A DNA stretch of 64,000 nt from Antedon mediterranea. Its lineage: Eukaryota; Echinodermata; Crinoidea; Comatulida; Antedonidae. A program made the translations under genes and the position numbers. Numbering within the stretch: the first letter of the stretch is position 1; the number at the start of each line of letters is the position of its first letter. Where the stretch lies: positions 5,371,001 through 5,435,000 of the forward strand of contig NC_092680.1 of NCBI RefSeq assembly GCF_964355755.1, in the 5' to 3' direction. This document shows, piece after piece, positions 3,501 to 50,752 of the stretch. Below the pieces are notes generated by a model. That model ran no database searches. It was not told where the DNA came from and worked only from the letters and a program-made list of their open reading frames with translations.

Positions 3501-6231
3501 GGGTTTAATTTTTTTAACTCAAACATCACCAATGCTAGAATAATATTTTGAATGGATTTTAGAAACAAATGTTACCTAACTTTAATAAAAGTGTCTTATT
3601 TTGTTTAACTACTGTTTTTAATGTTTAATTTAATTTCTAATTTAAAAAAAAAAGCTAAAAATTACAGATAATGACAAATAATTTGACAGTTGCTAGTTAT
3701 CATAATAATATAATATTTTGAAGAATTCACTTTTGAAAATTGTAATTTGTTGGCATTAATTAACATTAAACAATAAAGAAAAAATTTTAAAGTATTTTCT
3801 TCTGTTATCATCAGGTTAATTTAAACTTTATCATCTTATTCATGTCATGATTCTAATTCTCTATTGTGTAACCATATAAATCAGTGTTTGGTATCGTGAG
3901 TTTGATCTTTTTCTCCTCCTCGCTTTTAAAAAGGTTTCTTAATAACAACAACATTTCCCATATTCCACTTGGTACATTCACGGAACTTCGGAATCTTAAA
4001 CGATTGTAAGTTTTCATTCATTTTTATTTAAATCATTGTTTATTTCATAATTTCATTTTTCGTTTTTGCCCGATTCATCATGTTTACGCATGTACATCCT
4101 CATTTATGCATGTTAAAAATAACATCAACTTTTTGACCGATTTTAATTTTTGATATTATAATTATGATATACAGTAGGCTTATTATGTTATTATGTATAT
4201 AACCTATAGTGCAAAACTTTAACATTTTCAGTGATATTTTAAGGCAACTTTAGGGAATTTAATTGTTAAAACACCAACATTGTATTTTATTTTTTATTAA
4301 AAATAAAAACGCTCTGTCTATACTATCAAACTTTATGTGACAAAAAAAATGTGATGTGCCCATGGACATGATGATGTCATATCACTACCATATTTGGGCA
4401 CATAACACTTCGTTTGTGTCAATCTTTGAGTTTGATAGTGTAGACAGCTTAAGAACATATATTTATTTTATCAAATGAAAAGTAATTAATATTACATAAT
4501 AATTACCATTTACAGTTAGGTTACTGTATTTCAGAGAGTTTTACAGAAATGTTTAGAGATTTTGGGCACAAGTATAGTACCTTTTAGTAACTCAATTTGG
4601 AAGTCATTACTTTGGCATCTTAATGAATTTTTAGCTGATACCATTTTAGTTTATTTTATTTTGTACAAAATAACAAACTTATCTGTGAATAAATTCATTA
4701 TTTTTTTAAAAAATGTATGAAAAACCAATATCTTTGAATACCAGTAAGTACTCTCTACTAAGTACAATAGTACTTAAAAGCACACTCTAATAGAGATTTA
4801 TTTTATTAAGTACACTCTACATGCTCAATAAGCTAAGTACTTTCTCAATAAAGCACTTTTGTCAATATCACTTTGCTCAAATAGCACTTTCTTAAAAGTA
4901 CTTATTTCAACAAGTTTACTTTAAATAAACTAAAAAAGTACTCACAAAATAACTGTTACTATGTCTGCATACATTATTTTAATTTAAAAAATGATTTTCT
5001 TGCCTTGCCTGCTTGTATTATCTTTTGTCAAATTACGCTTTTAGCAGCTTGTTCTAAGTAAATGTAGATAATTATGCACCTGTTACTTTGTAGACAATGT
5101 GAATTATAGAATTATGTATTTGTTGTTGATGATGCAATTGCATGTTGATATTTATTATATTTAAATTAAATGCATCATGTTTAATTTAGAACCTTCATTT
5201 ATAGCTTTGTATTTGTGTATTGTATTTTTCCGTGCTGTTTAAAAAAAAATATATATATATATATGGCATCTTGAAATTTACTATACATATTAAATTATTT
5301 GCATATTATTTTATATTTTAATTAAATGTATTCTATTTTATATGAATGTATAATAAATATAAATACACTACAGTTTACTACTTTATTTAATTCTTCTCAT
5401 TATATTAAAATTAGCATTAATGTATTATACTGATGTACTGTACATCATCGGAATGTACTGTAGTGGCATTACTTATGCAAATGGTTGTTATACTGATTTT
5501 TACATCCTATAATTTTTGTTTTTAATTATTCAGTGTAAGATAAAATGATAATATTATAAATGAACAATAGAGGTATAAAAATATATTATTTTAAGACCTA
5601 GTTGACTAATCATCATTGATTAATCATCAGATTATTTAATGATATAAAATCAATTATAGGATATTTAGTACTGACCATGATTTGGGGGATTTCAAATGGT
5701 TTGAAATAAAATATAGATCATTATTTATTTTACAAATTCTTTTTTAGTTAAAATTAATATATTTTATATTACATACTTTAGTTTTGCCATACTCTACCTT
5801 AAAGAACCAATTACATCAGAAAGTAAACATTTGACCAACCAACTTAGCTCCCTGATGCAAAGCTACCATACTCCACACATACAGTAGTACTATGAGTTAT
5901 GCAATTAATCTATATCATCCTGTTTATTTTATTTTATACAATATGTCTATCTTTATAAACACAATTTTTCTGTAGGCCTACAACATATTTCATATCTGGA
6001 ATTCACTTAACCCATTTGCACTTTGTAATTAGTGATTCACTTTTCTTTTTAATTCTATTAGACGTTTGGATTCCAACCGATTAGTTTGCGATTGTAAAAT
6101 GATGTGGTTAGTTCAGATGTTACAAGAAGCTGGTCGGTATGGACACACACAATCGGCGGCGGCGTGCGAATACCCTAAAGAATTACGAGGCAAAAACCTC
6201 ATCTCACTGACTCCGATACAAATGAATTGCC
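527..6231 (+). CDS. PXDN: peroxidasin leucine-rich repeat exons and LRR cap
   Basis: Four exons encode the LRR block. 527-670 and 1003-1146 are each 144 bp (two 24-residue repeats) and 3934-4005 is 72 bp (one repeat), the classic one-repeat-per-72-bp layout. All split a leucine codon in the same phase. Repeats read as LxxLxLxxNxI, for example [19 protein letters not shown]. Exon 6062-6231 is the C-terminal cap with its cysteines (VCDCKMMWL, then SAAACEYP, ending MNC). Five full repeats are visible. In the family this region is extracellular and mediates protein contacts. Confidence 0.94.
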
Positions 6232-35249: not shown

Positions 35250-38200
35250 GTATCATTGTTTTCTTTATGCTTACTTGACTGATGTTGTACTAAGTGTATT
35301 TTGATCTTGATTGCTGCAGTAAACATAATGATTAACTAGGAAATCTTGATCTTGAATCTTGATTGCTGCAGTAAACATAATGATTAACTAGGAAATCTTG
35401 ATCTTGAATCTTGATTGCTGCAGTAAACATAATGATTAACTAGGAAATCTTGACCTTGAATCTTGATTGCTGCAGTAAACATAATGATTAACTAGGAAAT
35501 CTTGATCTTGAATCTTGATTGCTGCAGTAAACAATGGTTAACTAGGAAATATACCTATCCCATAGAAGAAACCAAATTCAACCACCCCAACCATTTCCCA
35601 GTGCAAATTTTGATTTTTTTACCACTTATTTATTATATTAATATTTATACTGGGTGACCTCTTCACTGGACTCCCAAAGGGCCCAGTTATGATCAGTGGC
35701 TGTGAGTGACAATGACTGTGTGTGTACTAGTACACCGGAGTAACCCCTTACTCGTCTCAAAAGATGTAATAGGTTCTTAAAAATGCACATGACCTTTAGA
35801 ATTTAGACACAAAGGGTGCAGTTATATGGAATATTTGAACAAGTAAAAAACAGATAAATGTTATAAACTTGATCAATTTCAATTTGTTTTCTTAAAAATG
35901 CATCAAAATTTATCATAATATATAATGAATACATTATTATTTTTCAGGTTTTTTATGAAAATACAGATGTGTTTGTGAAGAAAATTGAGAATGTAACGCA
36001 CCTGAACTTATTCCTAACAGAATTAAAGGACGAAGATGTAACAGAGACAATGTACTCCTGGGCTTACAGGTCAAAGGTCAAAGATACAAATAAACCTGGA
36101 AGCAAGATTGATGCTGTCTGTGATGTAATACGTGAAAGCTGTATACGAATTAATCCAGAAAAGTAGGTTTTTATTTTGTCAAATGTTTCTAAAGCTATCT
36201 AAGTAGTCTGATGTGCCCAAATATGGTAGTGATATGACATCATCATGTCTATATAAGGGCACATCAAATATTTTGTCACAAGTTTGATAGTGTAGACAGA
36301 GCTTCATATTGAAATGGTTGCATTTTAAAATGGGGTCTTTCATTTGTTCGAACATTATTTATTAATGGTTGATTTATACAAGAACAAAACTATATAAGCA
36401 CAAAAACAATTTAAACCGTCATTGCTAAATGTTTTATAACCACAAACTTATTCACAGCAGGCATGCGAGAAATGATATAGACATTCAACCATTATTAGGT
36501 ATTTTACACTAAAAGAATTAAAAACCATTATAATTTCAACAAAAACGATACCTGTGTATACCACCATATATGAACTGAGTCAATCTTTGACCTAGATATA
36601 CTTTGCCCGATGATCACCAGATAAGAATCTAAACCATATTATTCTAACAATATTACTCAATTTGGTTACTTAGATATTTGTTGTCTATCCTAACAACGCA
36701 TATAAAAAAGACAACTCCAGAGTTAGAGACTGCCCTCAGATGTGTTCTTGATTTGAGGAGTAATCAATCATCCAACCACGAACAACCAACTCCTGATCAA
36801 GCCCTCAAGTACATCATGTATCTTGTGGACGTAAACAAACTTTTTGATTTAGCTCTTGGAACATATGATTTTGATCTTGTTTTAATGGTAGCTGCAAAAT
36901 CTCAGAAGGTAAAATTGAGTTTTTAGGAGTTTGGTTCAAGCGTAACATGCTTTTGATCAATGTCCTGTACTGTATATCAGTTGAATTATTATTACTATAC
37001 TCATTGTGCTTGGAAAAAGAACCCACATTTAAAAAATAGAACAGTCTTCCTTGTACCTTTTGTTATTATTTACAAATACTTGGATATAAATACAAATTTC
37101 AAATTCAAAGGACATTGTTTGATATGCTGTGCATAGTGCTTGATGCAAAGCAAAATATTTTATATATTATTTTTGTATAAGTATTTTAAAAATGTCCTTA
37201 ATTAAAAATATATGTGACCATACCATATAAATGAATAATTACTAACGTAAGCTTTTAAACAATCATTTAATGAATAAAGAACAATAATAAAAACTGTCAA
37301 AAAGTCGAGCGGCATTTTTTTTTGTAAGAAATGTTTCGTGATTATTTTTTTATTCAAAACCAACCAATTCGCCAATAACAGGAGGGTTAAAACAAATTCA
37401 ATGGCCTACATAAAATATTATATAGGCCCGTATATAATAACTATTATATTTATTACATTATTACACTTAAACGTTTTGTATTAAGTTTCTTATTGTTTTG
37501 TTATCACAGGATCCAAAAGAATATCTCCCGTTCCTAAACAACCTTAAGAATTTGGAAGCAAACTATCGAATGTACAGCATTGATAAACATCTTGGCAGGT
37601 TTAGCAAAGCGCTAGACCACATTAGTAAATGCCCAGAGCACTTTGACGAGTGCCTTGCACTGATCAAGGAACATAAACTACACAGCCTAGCCCTTTCATT
37701 GTTTACCTATAATACAGATAAATACAAGGTATGTTGTAATATATTTGTTATAAGACATAACATAAATTTGAAATCCAAATTACTAATAGACTATTCTTTA
37801 ACTGTATTTATTTAGGCAGTTGCAACTTCTTATGCAGAATATCTTACTGAAAAGAATAGACATGAGGAAGCAGGAACACTGTACACTCTTTCTGGGGAGT
37901 GGTCAGATGCCTTGGAGGCCTACGTCAAGTGTGGCAATTGGCAACAAGTGTTCTGCCTAACAGCCAGGCTAGGCTACGGGCAAGATAAGGTTTCTATGCT
38001 AGCCAGGAAGCTAGCCGGCTACCTGACACAGCATCGAAGACATGCTGAGGCTGCTGTTGTGCTAGAAGAGTATGCAGATGATCATGAGGATGCAATCGCT
38101 ACTCTTATTTGTGGTGCTGTTTGGGAAGAAGCTCTTCGTTTGGTTAGTTTTTATCTATACCTGAATATTATGCTTTTATAGTCATTTTTACATTGAAGAT

Positions 38201-41200
38201 TTAGAGAAATCTCAAAGCTCAACACACCATAAACTGTTTAGAAATATATCTTTGTATCGAAATATGAATGTATTAACTGAGCATTTTGATCTATTTATAC
38301 ATATTTCTGTGCAACTAATTGGAATGGATTGAACAGTGTGAACATTTGAAACTCTAAAGCTCTGTCTATCAAACTAGTTTGACAAAAAAAGTGTGATGGG
38401 CCTAAATATGGTAGTGATATTCTTAAATATGGTAGTGATATGACATCATGTCCATATATGGGCACATCACTTTTTTTTGTCACAAAGTTTGATAGTATAG
38501 ACAGAGCTTTATATTTATTTTTAAATAATTTACTTTTAGATGTACAAGCACAAAAGAACAGATATCATTGAAACTAATCTAAAACCAGCACTTAAAGAAA
38601 GTAAGTATATACTAAAGATGAGTTCTTGCCAGGTATGGCAAACCACATAAAAGCACAATATTAGAATAATGGAATGGTTGTGTACCTCCTGAGAGGTATG
38701 TATGTAAAATGTTAAATTAAAACCACACATCTCTAAGAATTATTTTGTGGTACTATGTTATGATTCCTTTTTATTGTTATTCAAGACAAAAAAAGGAATA
38801 TTAAATTATGAATATATATATAGTATATATATTTTTTCTTTAAAATTGCAGGATGCCAAGAACATGTAGAATCCATTGTAAGCGTTAGAGAAGAGTTTGA
38901 AAACCACAAGGCGCGTCTTGCAGTTGTACGTGAAAACAAAGAGCGTGTGCAAAATGATTTGCTTGATGATGTAGCAGGCAATAATCCAGACACAGATTTA
39001 TACTCGGAAACAAGCAGCATAACGGGAAGTACGTTTGCCGGGAGTACAGGAACGCGATCTACATTTACTGCCTATAGTGAGGCTAACTCTAGGATATCTG
39101 GGTATTTATATTTTCTTCTCTTATATGTATATCTTTCATCAACACAGTAGCCTATTTGTTTGATATATATATGACATATAAATCAACACATTGCTTTACA
39201 GTTTATATTAGAGGAATAGTTATAAAAATATTCTGAAAATCTACACTTTAAAGATTATAGGAGATGCTGATTCGTAACAAAATAGTACTGTGTGACAATT
39301 AGCTAAATTTTTCTATACCGCTACCAAAAACAGAGTGACTTCTGTTTTACTCACAAAATTGTTACATTACAGGACACATAGTAACTTTACAGAGTATAGT
39401 GGTGCCTACCGACATCACTAGGCCAGTAGACACAACAAGTTATCTGTTAACAGTACAGTGTATTTAGGCCTAGACTCACTTGCCCTACTGTAAAATAGGA
39501 TAAACTAAACCTTGTGCTTAATTCCACCATTTGTAGTGATGCAATATGGGTTTAATAATTGTTTAGAAAGTGGAATAACTAATGTAAATTATAAAGAGGT
39601 TCACATTTTTAACATTATTTATATTCTATTTAGATAATTAATTGTATTAATTATTAATTGTTTTTAATGTTATTTGATAACCATCAGGAGATCGGCTAAA
39701 AACAAGCGGAAGGCAGCGAGTAAAAGGAGAAGTTTAAGGCAAGGTAGCGAAGAAGAAGACTTGGCATTATTGGAGGAATTGCAACAAATTTATAAGAATA
39801 TAGATGGACTGAAAGGTTACATGAAATTAATTTTTTTTCTAATTTTGCTCATTAGGATTTTTGATTCGTAACAAGACTGATTATTATTGCTATAAAGCAT
39901 GGTTCCCACTAGCGACGCAACGCAGTGACGCAAAGTTCTGTATTGCGTAATAACAAGTGGGAACCGACAACGCAAAAGTGCTGTAAACATCACAGGTTCG
40001 ATTTCACAGAGGCATAAGTAAACACAAATATTGGAAGGAAATTTTCTTGCGTTGCGTAGGTTACGTTGCGTCGCTAGCGGGAACCAAGCTTTAGAAAACA
40101 AATTTCATTATGTGTCACTACTGTATCATTATGACAAATAAACTTCTGTATTCCGTGTCCAAATTTCTCTAATAGACCTGTATGGTAGCCTAGGCTGTAG
40201 TAGACAGCTTTTAAATCTGTGACATGTCTCTTTACTTGGGCATACACCATCATTTTTATTTCTTGTGAATTCCGTTCTAAAATATATAAAGGTCACCACT
40301 AAGAATTATATAAAGCAATAGCTCGAAATACCAACATTACTAAAACTGACCAGAGAAAGTTTTGATTTTTTTTATTGGAAACTTACATTGTGTGACTTTA
40401 ATAATGATTCAAATATTATTTAAATATTTTAGGTGAGATTGGAAGTCTACTAAAAATGCTAGTTTTGTTTCATTTTGAAAAAGATGCACAAATACTACAA
40501 AGTAGCCTATATGATATGCTCAAACTTCTAGAGAAATCAACTTGCGAAATTTGGCCAAAAACAGATGAAAACCAATCAACGGTATGTATTGAATTGAAGA
40601 TTGAGAGGATAGATAGGAATGAACAGTGGAGCAATGAGAGATATGACATAGAGTACATTAAAACAAATATAAAGCAATTGCACTGTTTTTAATTAGATTT
40701 ATTACTTGTTATAACATGCCTATTCTTGCCATTTGGTTGGTTTATTTTGTATCACATGTCGTGCATTATTTCATCCTATTTCAATACAGTATATGCACTC
40801 TAAGCATTATGTAAATGCTTATTGCATGACAGGAAACCTACCTGTTGAGTGTAATAACCATCAATTACTACTCTGCTCCTGCATCCAATATCTCGGTTTA
40901 GATAGCCTAGCCTTCTAAATTTGATTTGGGGTGATGTGGGCTAAAGTTTATTTAGTATGCATTAGGAAAGTTTTGTATTTTGTTAAATGCAGAGAATATT
41001 TTTACATAAAATAGTCATAAAAAAATGTAAAAAAGTCAGTCTTCCAACTCATGCAAATATTCTCTCCATTCACCTCAACTCATTCATTATTTGTATACTA
41101 TTTATTATTATTTTTTTTTTCAATTCAGCAAAGCTTTGGTCCACAAGCAACATCAAATACAATTGCTGCAGCACTGATGCAAGGAACTTCACAGATCTCA

Positions 41201-42597: not shown

Positions 42598-43685
42598 TCA
42601 TTTTTTCTTTCCTCCTGAAACTGGCTTGGATCCGCCTTGAAATAGCGCTTCTAAAGTGGTATTATTGTATTCCAAAACATTTGGCGCACGCATATCATCA
42701 GTTACATTATTTTGCTTTAAAAGTTCATCCATTCTTTTGGAAACGTCAGAACTTGACCTCAGTGCCATAGCATGGTTTGGGCTTTGCATCAGAGTATGTG
42801 TAATTCCTCGCAAACTGGAAAATTTAGAAGTAGCTAATTCAACATCACTGGCACCGTCATCAAGTAACTTCAGATTGTGTTGGTAAGTTGATTCAAGAAC
42901 TTGTAGTTGGTCTCTCTTATAATCTTCAATTCGTTTTTGTAATTTGTCAGCTTCTTCTTTGATTTTAAGTTCACGCTTTTTGTAATTGGACATCTCCAAT
43001 TCCTTTTTTCTTTGAAGCTGTTCTGCAAGGTCTTCAAAGCCAACTATTCTCTCATCTGCTTCTTTTATCAAGGTTGTTGAAATGGTGGTGAATGCTTCAA
43101 ACGCAGTTTTTACTTCTACTATGGTGTGGCCATGTTTAGGATGTTCAACCAGTGTACAACTAACACAAACTGGAATCTTGCACAAGTCGCAGTAGAAATG
43201 AAGAGGCATACTATTATGTTTGGAACAATACACAGATTTAGAAGCCAACCGCTCAGAAGGACTGATTGCTGTGTATTCTTCCATTGTAATAATGCAGTGA
43301 TGTTGTAACACCTTCATTTTTGTATGATCATTTCTGTGCAATGTGCAATATACTTCATCACAGTCTTGACAGAAAAAGGATGCCGCAGTACTACAAAGGC
43401 TACAGGTTGAAGCAGTCTTCTGTTCCAGTGAAGTGACATAGTCTAACATGCCACTGATAAATATGTTGTTCTTCAGGTTTTGAAGCCCTCCTTCTGGAAT
43501 CTGGCAGACGTCACGACAAGTTGGGCAGCTGAGTACACCATTGCTTTTCTTCACCCATCCATCAAGACACTCAAGACAGAATGAATGAACACATGTCAGA
43601 ATCTTAGGTCTTGTAAATCGATTCATACATAACGGACACTCAAGTGCTGCGGCTTCAATTCCTTCAATGACTTCTTCAACAAATT
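42598..43685 (-). CDS. RING, two B-boxes and coiled coil exon
   Basis: RING of C3HC4 type: CPLCMNRF, LTCVHSFCLECL, LSCPTC. B-box 1: CSLCSTAASFFCQDC...CTLHRNDH. B-box 2: YCSKHNSMPLHFYCDLC...CVSCTLVEHPKHGH. A charged heptad-rich segment (RIVGFEDLAEQLQRKKELEM onward) gives the coiled coil. It ends with ALFQGGSKPVSGGKKK and has no SPRY, NHL or other C-terminal domain. Structural cysteines and histidines all appear present. Confidence 0.93.
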
Positions 43686-46600
43686 CTGAAAAGTAAGATC
43701 TTTATATAATTCGTAATATCATGTAAAGTGTCTCAATAGTGGCTGGCATCATGCATGTTATGTCCTAAGGTACTCCTCCTTTACAAGCAAAGAAACAGTA
43801 ACAGTGGTTTAAGTAAATCATTAGATTAAAGTTAATAATAACAGCAGTACAGTAAATTACAATATATGTTTATTGATGAATGATATGTCACACATAAAAA
43901 TAAAATAGAAATATAATAATGATTAGAAACAGCTCATATACTTATTTTTGGTTGATTTGATTATATTTGAGTTTTGGTGGGGTGGAATTATCCAGTGTGA
44001 TTACAAATCTTACTTTAGGAAAGAAAAGAAAACACTTGATAACTACTTTTTTTTTCTTAATCTCTGAAGTATCCAATTTCCAAGAATATACCCAAAACGT
44101 TTTTTTTAGAAGCAAACAATAAGATGCTATAAATGTGCTTTGTGATAAGAAACAGAAGGAATTCTTACTTGTATCTGGTCTGGACATTTTTCCTGATTGA
44201 TAAATCTCGCCTTCACGGTCTAAAGATTCTTCTGTAAATAAATAATTGAATTTTAGTCAATAAATAAACTAGTGATTAATAAGAGTGAAAATGGAAAAAT
44301 AAAATGAGAACCCAGATTGTAGTTCATGTTAAAGTTTTATTGGATGCAATGATTTACAATTTTGTTAAAATAATAGGACCAGCCAATAGGTTCCGTGACC
44401 AACTTTATAGAACAAAGGTTTGAAAGTGTCTTTGATCAATACTGAACAAATTTAGCTTGGGCTCGCCTCCCGAGAGAGGAGTCAATTAAGGTCACATAGG
44501 GGTCAACATGCTTTAAATATGTTATGTAATATACATATATATAGTAGTAGCATATAATAAGTAAGTTGCTATAGAATGTTCCTTATGATAAAAAAAACCC
44601 AAATAGTTCTTACTTGTATCTGGTTTGGATTCTTGTCCTGTTTGAGAAATGCTTTTTATATGGTCTAAACATTCTTCTGTAAATATATAAATTGAAGTTA
44701 ATTATTGAAAAGAACTAAAACAAAATAATAAATTGACACTAAAATTTAGTTTTGACTGTACAAATGTTGATTCGAAAGGTAAGAAAGGGGGAAAATGCTG
44801 CCAGTTTTGTTTTGTTTTATTTATTTACATAGCAAGCACGATATCATCTATTTCACTTGACTTGGTATATAATAAAAATATTTAAAAAATGTAATTCTAT
44901 TAACAAAAGTAATGTATCGACTTACTTGAGAAAACCTCTTTCAGAATTGAATCAAAACCATATCTGCTCAATACAGTTATTAACCTTTGTTTCTTGTCTT
45001 CAGTACCATGTAATTGCTGTGCTCTCCATGCTAAAATCATTGCTTTTATTTTAGCAAATTTATTTCCATATTTCATGTCAAAATATAGCATATTTGAAGG
45101 TTGAAAATTTAGTGCTTTAGATACAGTATCATGATGTTGCAGCAGCTTGATTGTAAGTATGTGGATATCCCCATCCTGCAGATCTGTAATTGACAACATA
45201 CTTTGTTACATGCAATTTGAGATTTGCAATTATGCATTTTTTTCGCTACCCCTAGACCCCTATTGTTTTATGATTATTTATGTCGATTTATTGTAGTATT
45301 GTAATATATTAAGTGTTTAATAGGCTACCTGCATTCATACAGTGCTACTTGGTATACAGTAAATCTCTGATATTCAAAAAAACAACATTTGAGAATTTGT
45401 TATATTTTAAATCTAATTAGTACATAGTTTGTTTAAATACATATATAGTATAGAAATTGTATGCATCATACCACCAATCAAGTGGGTGGCTAGGTCATCA
45501 TAGCCACATTTTTTCAGAGCCCTTGCTAGTGTACCAAGATTATCCATCTCTGAAGGCTGTTGTTTTTTCCAAGTCATGAATGCTTGGTAGGCCTGTTTGG
45601 ACTTATCAGGAGATGATTTATAAATTTCTCTGATCTCTTCTTCTGTCAGGCGGAGCTGTCTTGCAATATCTTGCCATGATTTTGAAAGTTCAACAGAGAG
45701 TTGTTCTAGGAGGTTACTATCAAGTCCTGTAAAATAAACAAGCCAACTAAGAGCACGAGATGTTTAAAGTATAACCAACCAAGCAACAGGGAGATCTTTT
45801 TTAAAAATAGATTACCTTTAATCAGAAATGTTGACACAGTTCTTAAATTAATCTGATCGAGAGCAGATGCAAGAAATGAAGCTTTATCCGATGCATGTGA
45901 TTGGTTTGTTCTCCAAATCATCAGTACTTCTATGCACATTGCTTCCTGATCACCACCTCTTCTTTTTCTAATCTGTTCAATGTTAGATACATTCAGCTTT
46001 TCAGCAAGACTCTCCCAGCTGCATTTAGCTTCTTGTGCTATAAATCTTAAAATATCATCATCCAAACCTTTGTAAAATTGTAAAATAAAATCAAATTATA
46101 ACAGTATCAGTAGCATACAAACAAAGGCCTTCATAGAATTTGTAAACATTTTTTTTTTACCTAGGTAGATGACCGACCAGAATAACATATTAAAATTGAT
46201 TAAATAATCGATCAATAATAATATTTTTTCAGTCACCAAAAAATAATAACCAGGAGTGAGAATATACGGATTTTGCACTCACTCCATATAATACAGTAAA
46301 CAAACTATTACAATTAAACCTTATATATACGATAGATAGCCACTATGGAGATCTAACAATTAGGATGTTAATTAATGCAAAATCATATGGCCATTAATTT
46401 TGCTGTATTCTACATAAATCTGAAAATTAATGAAAATAATAAACATAATAAACATATACCTTGGAGTATTTCATTACACAGCTTGTCTTTTCCCAATTCC
46501 TTACAGATTCGTGCAAGTACTCCAAGCTTGTCTGTCTCACCCAAATTGTCTTCTTGCCAATCGTGAAGCATATGCAAAGATTTCTCCTTAAAAGTGTAAG

Positions 46601-48040
46601 TCTTTCTATTTAATGTATCAAGTTTCTTTGGGGCTATTTTCAGCTTTTTTCCAAACTCGAACCATCTTAGAGACAGATTACTTGAAATCTTCATCAACAA
46701 ATCATCTTCTACCCTTGTGACTGAAAAAAAAAACGTACTTTTTAATTTTTTTTTATTTCATACGCATCCAAAAGCGAGTAACTCGCCAATTACAGGATCG
46801 ATAAACTGTTTTATAATTTATCGTGCTTATAAACCAAGTCTCATTTTAGGCTTAGGGAGTAGAGTTGAAAGAGTCGGCAGTTACAACCCTGGCACTAGGT
46901 CAGGATTGAACCCTAGACCTTATGATTGGAAGGCAAGCATCTTAACGACGAAGCTACTGCTCCACTACAAAAAAAACGTACTTTTTAATTTGTTTTTATT
47001 TCATACGCATCCAAAAGCGAGTAACTCGCCAATTACAGGATCGATAAACTGTTTTATAATTTATCGTGCTTATAAACCAAGTCTCATTTTAGGCTTAGGG
47101 AGTAGAGTTGAAAGATTCGGCAGTTACAACCCTGGCACTAGGTCAGGATTGAACCCTAGACCTTATGATTGGAAGGCAAGCATCTTAACGACGAAGCTAC
47201 TGCTCCACTACAAACTTTAAATAACTATTGCCACTGTTCGTTTTTGGAATGATCTGTGTTGCACCACTACTCCTAGAAACAATCCTACCAGTTAGTAGTT
47301 GTTGCTAATCTTACTACAAATTCAATATTTTGCAAACCTGTTTCTTCCTCATTCGGTGCTGAGGGCACTTTTTCCCACGACGAATAACCTAGGATTCAAA
47401 TAAAATGAATGGTGAGTGTTGAATCAGTAAGAATTTAAAGAACATTTTCCTGAATTATTTCCTAAATATACAGTACATTTGTATAAAGGTGTTTACAATT
47501 TTGCAGCGACACAGTTGTTATTGTAGCTTAACAAATTCCTCTCATCCTCTTCATGCAATTTATAACTTATCAAATCAATCCAAACTAGCATAAGCAACTA
47601 CAACAATTATTGTTTTATGTATTCTATTTTGATATGTCAATGCCAATTACACATAATTATTTGTTTTGTATGTTTGAGGTTTGTTTTATAATGTATAGTA
47701 TTTTTGCAAATATTGATGATAATTTTTTTTTAATGAAATGGTTTATTTTAAATATTGATATTACTAAACCATTTTAATACTAATACTGTAATATTGTTCT
47801 GTCACGGAAAACATTCAGTGTTTTTAGTGTACTTTATTTCTCTATAAACAATTTAGTGTAATTTTTGTAAACAGAGACACCTGTGTCGTTAGCTATACTC
47901 CACAGATAGGACCCTGATTTGCTCTATACGACCACAGTAAGTACAGTAGTAGTATTATTAATACCTTTTCGTGGCTTGATGCTGCTGTTTGTTCCCTTAG
48001 ATACAACTGCAGATTTTTTTACATCACTGGCAAAAAACAT
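42598..48040 (-). CDS. four-death-domain TRIM-like protein (nine exons)
   Basis: Exons in transcript order: 48040-47965 (ATG), 47388-47338, 46720-46460, 46067-45816, 45726-45472, 45183-44926, 44676-44614, 44231-44169, 43685-42598 (stop). All junctions have splice consensus and every intron is in phase 1; joined length is 2367 bp, 788 residues. Domains: short N-terminus (1-42), death domains (about 43-129, 130-213, 214-298, 299-384), two 21-residue repeats (385-426), RING (443-483), two B-boxes and coiled coil to the end. No signal peptide or membrane segment. By family, death domains recruit partners and RING proteins ligate ubiquitin, so a signalling E3 is inferred. That all exons form one transcript is my model. 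The alternative is several overlapping transcripts, for example a short one starting at the last exon. Confidence 0.85.
44169..44231 (-). CDS. 63-bp linker mini-exon, copy 2
   Basis: Encodes KESLDREGEIYQSGKMSRPD plus T. Shared with copy 1: K-E-x-L-D, Q-x-G and P-D-T. Both splice sites are intact and identical in form to those of copy 1. Confidence 0.8.
44614..44676 (-). CDS. 63-bp linker mini-exon, copy 1
   Basis: Encodes KECLDHIKSISQTGQESKPD plus T, between acceptor TTTACAG and donor GTAAGA. Same length, phase and pattern as the next exon, so they are a tandem exon duplication. No known domain. Confidence 0.8.
44926..45183 (-). CDS. death domain 4 exon, divergent
   Basis: 86 residues. ILTIKLLQHHDTVSKALNFQ lacks the usual helix-2 tryptophan, but AMILAWRAQQL and LITVLSRYGFDSILKEVF keep the later pattern. 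Same length class and phase as the other three, so it is counted as a degenerate repeat. Confidence 0.7.
45472..45726 (-). CDS. death domain 3 exon
   Basis: 85 residues and the most typical of the four: SWQDIARQLRLTEEEIREI, FMTWKKQQ, LGTLARALKKCGYDDLATHL. This matches the canonical death-domain profile almost throughout. Confidence 0.9.
45816..46067 (-). CDS. death domain 2 exon
   Basis: 84 residues. CSWESLAEKLNVSNIEQIRK, then EVLMIWRTNQS and FLASALDQI, a clear death-domain pattern (W-x-x-L-A-x-x-L, a later L-x-x-W, and a hydrophobic final helix). Confidence 0.85.
46460..46720 (-). CDS. death domain 1 exon
   Basis: 87 residues. VEDDLLMKISSNLSLRWFEF and LGVLARICKELG follow the six-helix death-fold pattern: helix 2 with the WFEFGKKL tryptophan and LHDW before the last helices. 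The splice acceptor's polypyrimidine tract directly abuts the neighbouring SINE pair. Confidence 0.83.
46733..46968 (-). mobile_element. tRNA-derived SINE, copy 1
   Basis: On the minus strand a tRNA-like head begins near GTAGCTTCGTCGTTAAGATG (A-box region) and continues to GGTTCAATCC (B-box consensus), followed by a tRNA-unrelated body and an A-rich tail. It lies in the intron between exons 47338-47388 and 46460-46720, its tail touching the splice acceptor tract. Confidence 0.8.
46976..47211 (-). mobile_element. tRNA-derived SINE, copy 2
   Basis: Tandem second copy, same orientation, only a few base differences from copy 1 visible by eye (for example AGAGTCGG against AGATTCGG). The period is 243 bp, with ACAAAAAAAACGTACT at the join. 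Confidence 0.8.
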
Positions 48041-49630: not shown

Positions 49631-50752
49631 TTATCTTTGTTCATTTTTTTTTTTTGCCTTTAGAACATGAGGCCTTGGATTCGTATCAACTCCACCTCTG
49701 GCTTTAAAAAGCGCTTCTAATATGGTATTATTATATTCCAAAACATTTGGCGCACGCATATCATCGGTTGCACTGTTTTGCTTTAAAAGTTCATCCATTC
49801 GTTTGGAAATGTCAGAACTTGACCTTAGTGCCATAGCATGGTTTGGACTTTGCATCAAAGTGTATGTAATTTCTCGAATACTTGAAATTTTAGAAGAAGC
49901 CAAGTTAACTTCCTTTACATGGGTGTTAAGTAACTTCAGATGATGTTGGTGAGTTGATTGAAGGTCCTGTAATTGGTCTTTCTTGTAACCTTCAATTAGT
50001 TTGATTAAATTATCGGCTTCTTCTTTTATTTTCACTTCACACTTTTTGCAATTAGACATCTCCAATGTCTTTTTTCTTTGAAGCTGTTCTGCAATGTCTT
50101 GAAAGCTAACCAATCTTTCATCTGCTTCTTTAATCAAGGTTGTTGAAAGGACTGTGAACGCTTCAAAAGCATTTTTTATATTTATTATGTCATGACCATC
50201 ATTTTTAGGATGCTCAACCTGTATGCAGCTTACACAAACTGGAATCTTGCACGAGTCGCAATAGAAATGAAGTGACATATTATGTTCGAAGCAATACACA
50301 GATTTAGAAGCCAAACGCTCAGCAGGACTGATTGTTGTGTATTCTTCCATCGTAATTATGCAATGATGTTTTGACATCTTCATTTTTGTATGATCATTTC
50401 TGTGGAATGTACAATATAGTTCATCACATTCTTGACAGAAGAAGCATGCCGCAGTACTACAAAGACTACAGGTTGAAGCAGTCTTCTCTTCCAATGAAGT
50501 AACATAGTCTAACATGCCACTGATAAATATGTTGTTCTTCAGGTTTTGAAGGCCTCCTTCTGGAATCTGGCAGACTTCACGACAAGTTGGGCAGCTGAGT
50601 AACCCGTTGCTTGTCTTCACCCATTCCTCAAGACATCCAAGACAGAATGAATGAACACACGTTAGAATCTTTGGGCTTGTAAATCGATTCATACATACAG
50701 GACACTCGAGTGCTGAGGCTTCAATTCCATCGATCACTTCTTTAGATGCCAT
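49631..50752 (-). CDS. TRIM-like RING/B-box protein, single coding exon
   Basis: 373 residues from ATG at 50752 (MASKEVIDGIEASALECPVC). The start is preceded by TTTTTTAG, a splice acceptor at 50763-50764, so the open frame upstream to 50818 is intron or UTR, not coding. RING (CPVCMNRF...CVHSFCLGC...CPTC), B-box 1, B-box 2 (CFEHNMSLHFYCDSC) and coiled coil align nearly residue for residue with the last exon of the neighbouring death-domain gene. The C-terminus differs: LEALFKARGGVDTNPR then a basic KAKKKNEQR. No death domains or C-terminal ligand domain. Predicted cytosolic ubiquitin ligase. Confidence 0.9.
   Translation of the reverse strand: MASKEVIDGIEASALECPVCMNRFTSPKILTCVHSFCLGCLEEWVKTSNGLLSCPTCREVCQIPEGGLQNLKNNIFISGMLDYVTSLEEKTASTCSLCSTAACFFCQECDELYCTFHRNDHTKMKMSKHHCIITMEEYTTISPAERLASKSVYCFEHNMSLHFYCDSCKIPVCVSCIQVEHPKNDGHDIINIKNAFEAFTVLSTTLIKEADERLVSFQDIAEQLQRKKTLEMSNCKKCEVKIKEEADNLIKLIEGYKKDQLQDLQSTHQHHLKLLNTHVKEVNLASSKISSIREITYTLMQSPNHAMALRSSSDISKRMDELLKQNSATDDMRAPNVLEYNNTILEALFKARGGVDTNPRPHVLKAKKKNEQR

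Follow-up and report, generated by a model that had tools for sequence, protein, structure and literature searches.

Proteins that combine a death-fold domain with TRIM or RING elements have precedents in pyrin/TRIM20, in TRADD-N–TRIM fusions and in the cIAPs. Pyrin (TRIM20, encoded by MEFV) carries one PYRIN domain N-terminal to a B-box and coiled coil, ends in a B30.2 domain and has no RING. In vertebrates, CYLD acts on complexes of death-domain proteins, those of RIPK1 among them, and in the TNF-receptor complexes the enzymes are brought in by adaptors: SPATA2 and HOIP for CYLD, TRADD and TRAF2 for the cIAPs. The available text of PMC3137616 counts Pyrin among the TRIM-family domains, names a trim20 gene and describes zebrafish TRIM genes that gained new domains through exon insertion; that of PMC8195603 describes invertebrate TRADD-N proteins of the DEDD2 clade that are joined to TRIM domains and in most cases also have a DED; and that of PMC8917759 describes oyster IAPs in which BIR, death domain and RING occur together. 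Here we analyze a gene of the crinoid Antedon mediterranea located at 48040–42598, on the minus strand, of a 64,000-nucleotide stretch of contig NC_092680.1 (positions 5,371,001 to 5,435,000; contig C11 in our numbering), hereafter the window. This gene appears to join four death domains (DD1–DD4) to a RING/B-box/coiled-coil module. We lean towards a reading in which it encodes a chimeric protein, DD-TRIM, whose death domains were copied from an array in the CYLD gene and whose ligase activity would be opposed by the death-domain-bearing CYLD, DD-CYLD.

Exon anatomy and domain content

The gene is composed of nine minus-strand exons that form one 2367-nt frame of 788 residues plus a stop, and all eight introns are GT–AG and phase 1. 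The strand, coordinates and phases given for this exon set in an initial annotation of the window are borne out. Exon 1 (48040–47965) provides the proposed start ATG and consists of 25 codons plus one base; it is the weakest of the nine, with an AG just upstream that would allow it to be an internal exon. Exon 2 (47388–47338) is a 51-bp exon with phase 1 at both ends. Exons 3–6 (46720–46460, 46067–45816, 45726–45472 and 45183–44926) each encode one death-fold domain of about 85 residues, DD1 to a divergent DD4, at protein positions 44–129, 131–213, 215–298 and 300–384. These are followed by two 63-bp linker exons, exon 7 (44676–44614) and its duplicate exon 8 (44231–44169), which together with flanking intron share 77% DNA identity over 141 bp, and by exon 9 (43685–42598), which encodes the RING, two B-boxes, a probable coiled coil and the stop. 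A genome search with exon 7 at E ≤ 10 returned matches at its own locus only. Splice sites were scored with generic consensus weights. Relative to every GT or AG on the minus strand of the window, the eight donors lie at the 85th–99th percentile and seven of the eight acceptors at the 91st–100th.

The initial annotation had counted four death domains, and two of them are recognized directly by the Pfam Death profile (PF00531, cut-off 22.6 bits): DD1 with 29.1 bits and DD3 with 52.3 bits. DD2, at 22.5 bits, falls 0.1 bit below the cut-off and DD4 has no match. For these two the death fold is supported by structure prediction. AlphaFold2 models of DD2 and DD4, made from an input alignment of the four window domains, each contain six helices, with a best-model mean predicted local distance difference test score (pLDDT) of 92.5 for DD2 and 91.5 for DD4, where one of the five models reached only 61.8. 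When the models were compared with the PDB by Foldseek, the top ten matches of each were death domains, among them those of FADD, Fas–FADD, ankyrins, THOC1/p84, RIPK1 and p75NTR. The query template modelling scores are 0.74–0.86 for DD2 and 0.68–0.81 for DD4, with E-values of at least 0.0035 and 0.0054, respectively. As modelled, DD2 and DD4 have the six-helix death fold. DD4 has just 15–20% of residues in common with the other window domains. At the level of sequence, DD3 matches the PDB death domains of RIPK1 and THOC1, and a profile of all four window domains finds RIPK1 death domains as its best solved-structure match (2.9e-9).

The TRIM part of the initial annotation stands, with the coiled coil as a probable element. 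The C3HC4 RING and the B-box both exceed their Pfam cut-offs (zf-C3HC4_4, 34.5 bits, cut-off 30; zf-B_box, 30.8 bits, cut-off 24.1), and the zinc-ligand patterns of the RING (residues 443–483), B-box1 (521–556) and B-box2 (580–613) are complete. The B-boxes stand directly after the RING, as in TRIM/RBCC proteins. A coiled coil probably follows, as judged from a phmmer alignment to the TRIM28 (TIF1-beta) structure that extends through residue 664. Sequence matches of exon 9 in the PDB are TRIM2, TRIM3 and TRIM28, and Pfam finds no SPRY or NHL C-terminal domain in this exon. In the joined model the RING starts at residue 443, unlike the extreme N-terminal RING of TRIM/RBCC proteins. The Pfam scan of the gene covered five segments, outside which lie exons 1, 2, 7 and 8 (17–25 codons each), and in those segments it gave no match to PYRIN, SPRY, TRADD-N or BIR; a search of four proteins against NCBIfam gave no matches.

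One protein or separate products

Taken together, the exon sequences make it very probable that the locus encodes one chimeric protein with the order DD–DD–DD–DD–linker–RING–B-box–B-box–coiled coil. Part of the indirect support comes from comparison with a solo TRIM paralogue in the window (49631–50752, minus strand), which has its own ATG at 50752 and serves as a control for the copy in exon 9, the fused copy. The two are 80% identical in amino acid sequence over query residues 4–351, and their close relatives lie on contig C5. All seven C5 TRIM starts examined, together with the solo copy, begin with M-[A/T]-S-K, and this start is absent from the fused copy. DNA homology between the fused and solo copies begins at 43676 and 50742, respectively, which is 10 bases inside the solo coding region and, in the fused copy, nine bases past the exon 9 acceptor (95th percentile). 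Intron 8 meets stops when read in the TRIM frame, and no ATG lies between the last in-frame stop and the acceptor. The first ATG within exon 9 falls beyond the first two RING cysteines, and starting there would remove both.

Despite the missing start, the fused TRIM exon is under purifying selection. Between the fused and solo copies the synonymous divergence (dS) is 0.369 and the ratio of non-synonymous to synonymous divergence (dN/dS) is 0.315. Changes assigned to the fused lineage number 13 at 226 synonymous sites and 14 at 857 non-synonymous sites (P = 0.0014 versus neutrality). A single DD–TRIM protein is supported indirectly because the TRIM start codon is absent and yet the exon is constrained. 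In neutral simulations of the TRIM exon from the solo copy, the frame stayed free of stops in 11 of 2000 runs at 0.10 substitutions per site and in none of 2000 at 0.18; all four death-domain exons remained open in 12 of 2000 such runs at 0.10, and in one of 2000 at 0.15. By these simulations, the intact frames of the death-domain and TRIM exons are more than chance. The date of the TRIM duplication may be blurred by gene conversion between the two copies, since identity is 92% over one 300-bp stretch and 84% over another.

The phases, the splice sites and the end of the DD4 exon also argue for a single gene, since the donor at which DD4 ends is strong (99th percentile) and is common to a second copy of the array on contig C8, described below. 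Some features of the model pull the other way. Exon 1 has no match, and no homologue was detected, in tblastn searches against the C8 loci, and the exon 4 acceptor is weak, at the 62nd percentile. Exon 8 holds an in-frame ATG (GKMSRPDT) from which a TRIM-only product could be made, and intron 6 contains AATAAA at 44825/44821, about 100 bp beyond the DD4 donor, where a separate transcript could end. The locus might accordingly yield two products, a death-domain-only transcript that ends in intron 6 and a TRIM transcript that starts at the exon 8 ATG, and the TRIM relatives examined on C5, which have no upstream death-domain exons, would fit such an arrangement. We consider it unlikely in view of the strong DD4 donor and its presence in the C8 copy. 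AATAAA or ATTAAA is also frequent here, with 35 occurrences in 10 kb of the minus strand, and no other candidate 3′ exon was recognized on that strand: six minus-strand open reading frames of 72–104 codons, five downstream (38298–40688) and one in introns 7–8, have no Pfam match over the cut-off. The single gene of the initial annotation is supported indirectly by the phases, the splice sites, the DD4 donor and the absence of the start under selection, while the exon 8 ATG leaves room for a TRIM-only product beside it.

A sister array at the CYLD locus

When the 354-Mb genome was searched with the death-domain half of the gene, a single other strong place was found, at C8:10916466-10923050. 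It holds DD1, DD2, DD3, DD4 and a second DD3-like exon, of which the first four are collinear with the window gene, and the exon boundaries are phase 1 as in the window. Compared domain by domain, the two arrays are 60–84% identical, with dS of 0.26–0.37. DD2 is the most similar (70/83 residues identical, dN/dS 0.29), followed by DD3 (64/84, 0.41) and DD1 (61/85, 0.39), and DD4 is the least (50/84, 0.95). We regard it as highly probable that the window gene and the C8 locus share this array by duplication. The homology extends in part to exon 2, where a SSWEK...NEEE stretch recurs, by eye, in the C8 exon preceding DD1; tblastn of exon 2 against C8 gave no match.

These comparisons bear on whether the window gene could be an artefact of assembly or a pseudogene, as stops in several of the C5 TRIM relatives and a 243-bp direct repeat adjoining the DD1 acceptor might suggest. 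We think this highly improbable. The dS between the arrays speaks against a haplotype duplicate, zero N occur in the window or in the fetched loci, the nine exons are intact, and the stop-free outcome was rare in the neutral simulations.

The C8 array appears to belong to a gene that spans L007:3287-9130 and L008:891-8283 (C8:10915286-10930183), in which the five death-domain exons and a further death-like exon lie upstream of CAP-Gly and protease exons. Three of the five array exons pass the Pfam Death cut-off, and the death-like exon after the array scores 17.5 bits with bDLD3, below the cut-off of that profile. The CAP-Gly domain matches that of CYLD (1ixd, 4e-17) and the USP exons match the CYLD structure (2vhf, 6.6e-90), with the motifs NSCYLDST and SHYVAF aligned; we take these to hold the catalytic Cys and His of a CYLD-type USP. 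By its USP and CAP-Gly sequences, the C8 gene is CYLD. The genome search gave five CYLD matches, all of them exons of this gene, and the only CYLD gene detected in the genome thus appears to carry a death-domain array. Of 16 placed exons, 14 were joined without an internal stop; the two DD3-type exons, which lie outside this join, are 255 bp each, with open frames and the expected phase. Downstream of the array (L007–L009) no TRIM or linker exons were matched except for a chance-level TRIM match of 54 residues (E 5.0) inside the DD1 region.

The direction of copying can be judged from what surrounds each copy. Searches for upstream death domains at the C5 TRIM relatives covered six stretches (L001–L006), leaving aside a partial relative at C5:8733038, and found none but a 28-residue match in L002 (E 3.8). 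Because the examined C5 TRIM relatives lack upstream death domains while an array precedes the single CYLD gene, copying of the four-domain block from CYLD to TRIM is the simpler account, and we consider it the probable direction on this pattern of presence and absence. The source of the block would have been the array at the N-terminus of the CYLD gene, which now lies on C8; the copied block would have come to lie upstream of a tandem duplicate of the solo TRIM gene on C11, where its phase-1 exons were spliced onto a TRIM exon whose own start codon was lost. Because phase-1 introns flank each death-domain exon on both sides, splicing could take in the block with the frame unbroken. The two duplications fit a similar age, since dS is similar for the death-domain exons and for the fused and solo TRIM copies (0.37).

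The pairing of the two domain types was surveyed in the genome at 149 death-domain places (from 150 scored out of 181 candidates) and 150 B-box places (all 150 scored out of 382 candidates), and no other DD–TRIM locus occurs among these. Within 100 kb on the same strand, the only death-domain/B-box pairs among the scored places are those of the window DD3 with the fused and solo TRIM copies; three pairs lie on opposite strands, one on C2 and two on C3. Relatives of the window death domains other than those on C8 are weak (best E 0.003) and point to no partner. Large clusters of death-domain exons are present at C3:19.3-25.7 Mb and C5:12.3-14.5 Mb, with scores that are partly identical or near-identical, which suggests a lineage-specific expansion.

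Several other features were observed at and around these loci. In one C5 TRIM relative (L006:7318-9300) the same frame continues into an extended tail with abundant serine and FG-like motifs, and Pfam finds no match in this relative apart from the RING and B-boxes. The 243-bp unit directly upstream of the DD1 acceptor is present twice in tandem (46726–47211) with 99% identity; sequences related to part of it recur in L008 near 4224–4296. It looks like a dispersed repeat, and ARAGORN finds no tRNA in it. On the plus strand of the window, an exon of Elongator complex protein 1 (37816–38181; PDB 8avg, E 1.1e-28) marks a gene whose arrangement with the DD-TRIM gene is probably tail to tail. The 3′ end of this ELP1 gene was not found, and a second open reading frame near the gene end has no PDB match.

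Proposed function and comparison with known systems

A link between death-fold assembly and ubiquitin ligation in DD-TRIM, as raised in the initial annotation, is plausible from the domain content, and the balance tips slightly towards a ligase recruited through its death domains. The strongest clue, which lay outside the stretch that was annotated initially, is the sister array ahead of the sole CYLD gene detected. The tandem death domains would dock DD-TRIM onto a putative scaffold of death domains, for example an oligomer of a receptor, an adaptor or a kinase. Clustering at the scaffold, together with the TRIM coiled coil, would bring the RINGs together, and their proximity would activate local transfer of ubiquitin to scaffold components. 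DD-CYLD, through its sister array, would be drawn to that scaffold, or to a related one, and strip the ubiquitin, making the two proteins writer and eraser on one platform. Opposing enzymes, a TRIM ligase and CYLD, may in this way be guided to the same place by sister arrays. A more speculative extension, which we hold only tentatively, is that the duplicated block acts as a shared address tag, so that competition between the sister arrays sets the writing and erasing of ubiquitin without bridging adaptors of the vertebrate type.

The relation between the arrays could also be a direct one. DD-TRIM might act on DD-CYLD itself, with the sister arrays pairing and CYLD being either a substrate or an enzyme held in check by the ligase. 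The arrays are sisters by their domain-by-domain identity, and the domains differ in net charge, with DD1 (+3) and DD4 (+4) basic versus mildly acidic DD2 and DD3 (−1 each), so that heterotypic contacts are possible. We give this little credence, as a third partner for both arrays is equally possible. Alternatively, DD-TRIM might serve mainly as a decoy that competes with DD-CYLD for a death-domain partner, its ligase activity being incidental. In favour of a decoy, the TRIM part has no matched C-terminal substrate domain; the RING and both B-box zinc-ligand patterns are intact, however, and the exon is under purifying selection, which makes a decoy improbable.

For the proposal of a death-domain-recruited ligase opposed by DD-CYLD, a number of observations have to be set on the negative side. 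Ligase activity is predicted from the zinc-ligand patterns only. Exon phases are the basis for joining the array to CYLD, and the C8 gene yielded no ATG-containing first exon. In the C8 array, DD2 (16.5 bits) and DD4 (no match) both miss the Pfam Death cut-off. The dN/dS of DD4 and the fast change of the linker exons (dN 0.44, dS 0.10 on 60 nt) indicate that part of the window array may be weakly constrained, and this fast evolution counts mildly against a tight function of every part.

If the proposal is correct, DD-TRIM and DD-CYLD form a natural pair for asking how death-domain identity sets the recruitment of a ubiquitin writer versus an eraser. The gene would also illustrate clearly how a new signalling protein can arise when a symmetric block of phase-1 exons is moved ahead of a duplicated gene. 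The coupling of a single array to both a ligase and a deubiquitinase most deserves further study. No DD–TRIM or DD–CYLD protein appears in titles or abstract openings among the matches listed from the open-licence literature, outside which most subscription papers lie, and no DD–TRIM case is present in the available parts of PMC2246300, PMC5094078, PMC9334734 and PMC11788884.

Among described proteins, pyrin/TRIM20 resembles the window gene in placing a death-fold domain ahead of the B-box and coiled coil of a TRIM module, and the view in the initial annotation that vertebrate TRIM proteins carry no N-terminal death domains needs correcting in the light of its PYRIN domain, which is of the death fold. 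Unlike pyrin, the window gene has four true death domains and a complete RING pattern, and it gave no match to B30.2. The TRADD-N–TRIM fusions likewise couple death-like domains to TRIM ubiquitin-ligase domains in animals; here, the array is the sister of a CYLD-linked block. In cIAP1/2 (BIRC2/3) and the oyster BIR–DD–RING proteins, a death-fold domain and a RING ligase are found in one protein. These are defined by BIR domains and, to our knowledge, contain no B-boxes, whereas the window gene has two B-boxes and no BIR match. The order RING–B-box–B-box–probable coiled coil, with nothing matching SPRY or NHL at the C-terminus, is that of class V-like TRIM proteins, with the difference that the RING of the window gene starts about 440 residues in, behind four death domains. 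CYLD is related through the sister array that the C8 gene of this genome carries; neither USP nor CAP-Gly is matched in the window gene, and we know of no death domains in vertebrate CYLD. Unlike the adaptor-based recruitment of vertebrates, the ligase and the deubiquitinase here appear to carry their own, sister death domains.

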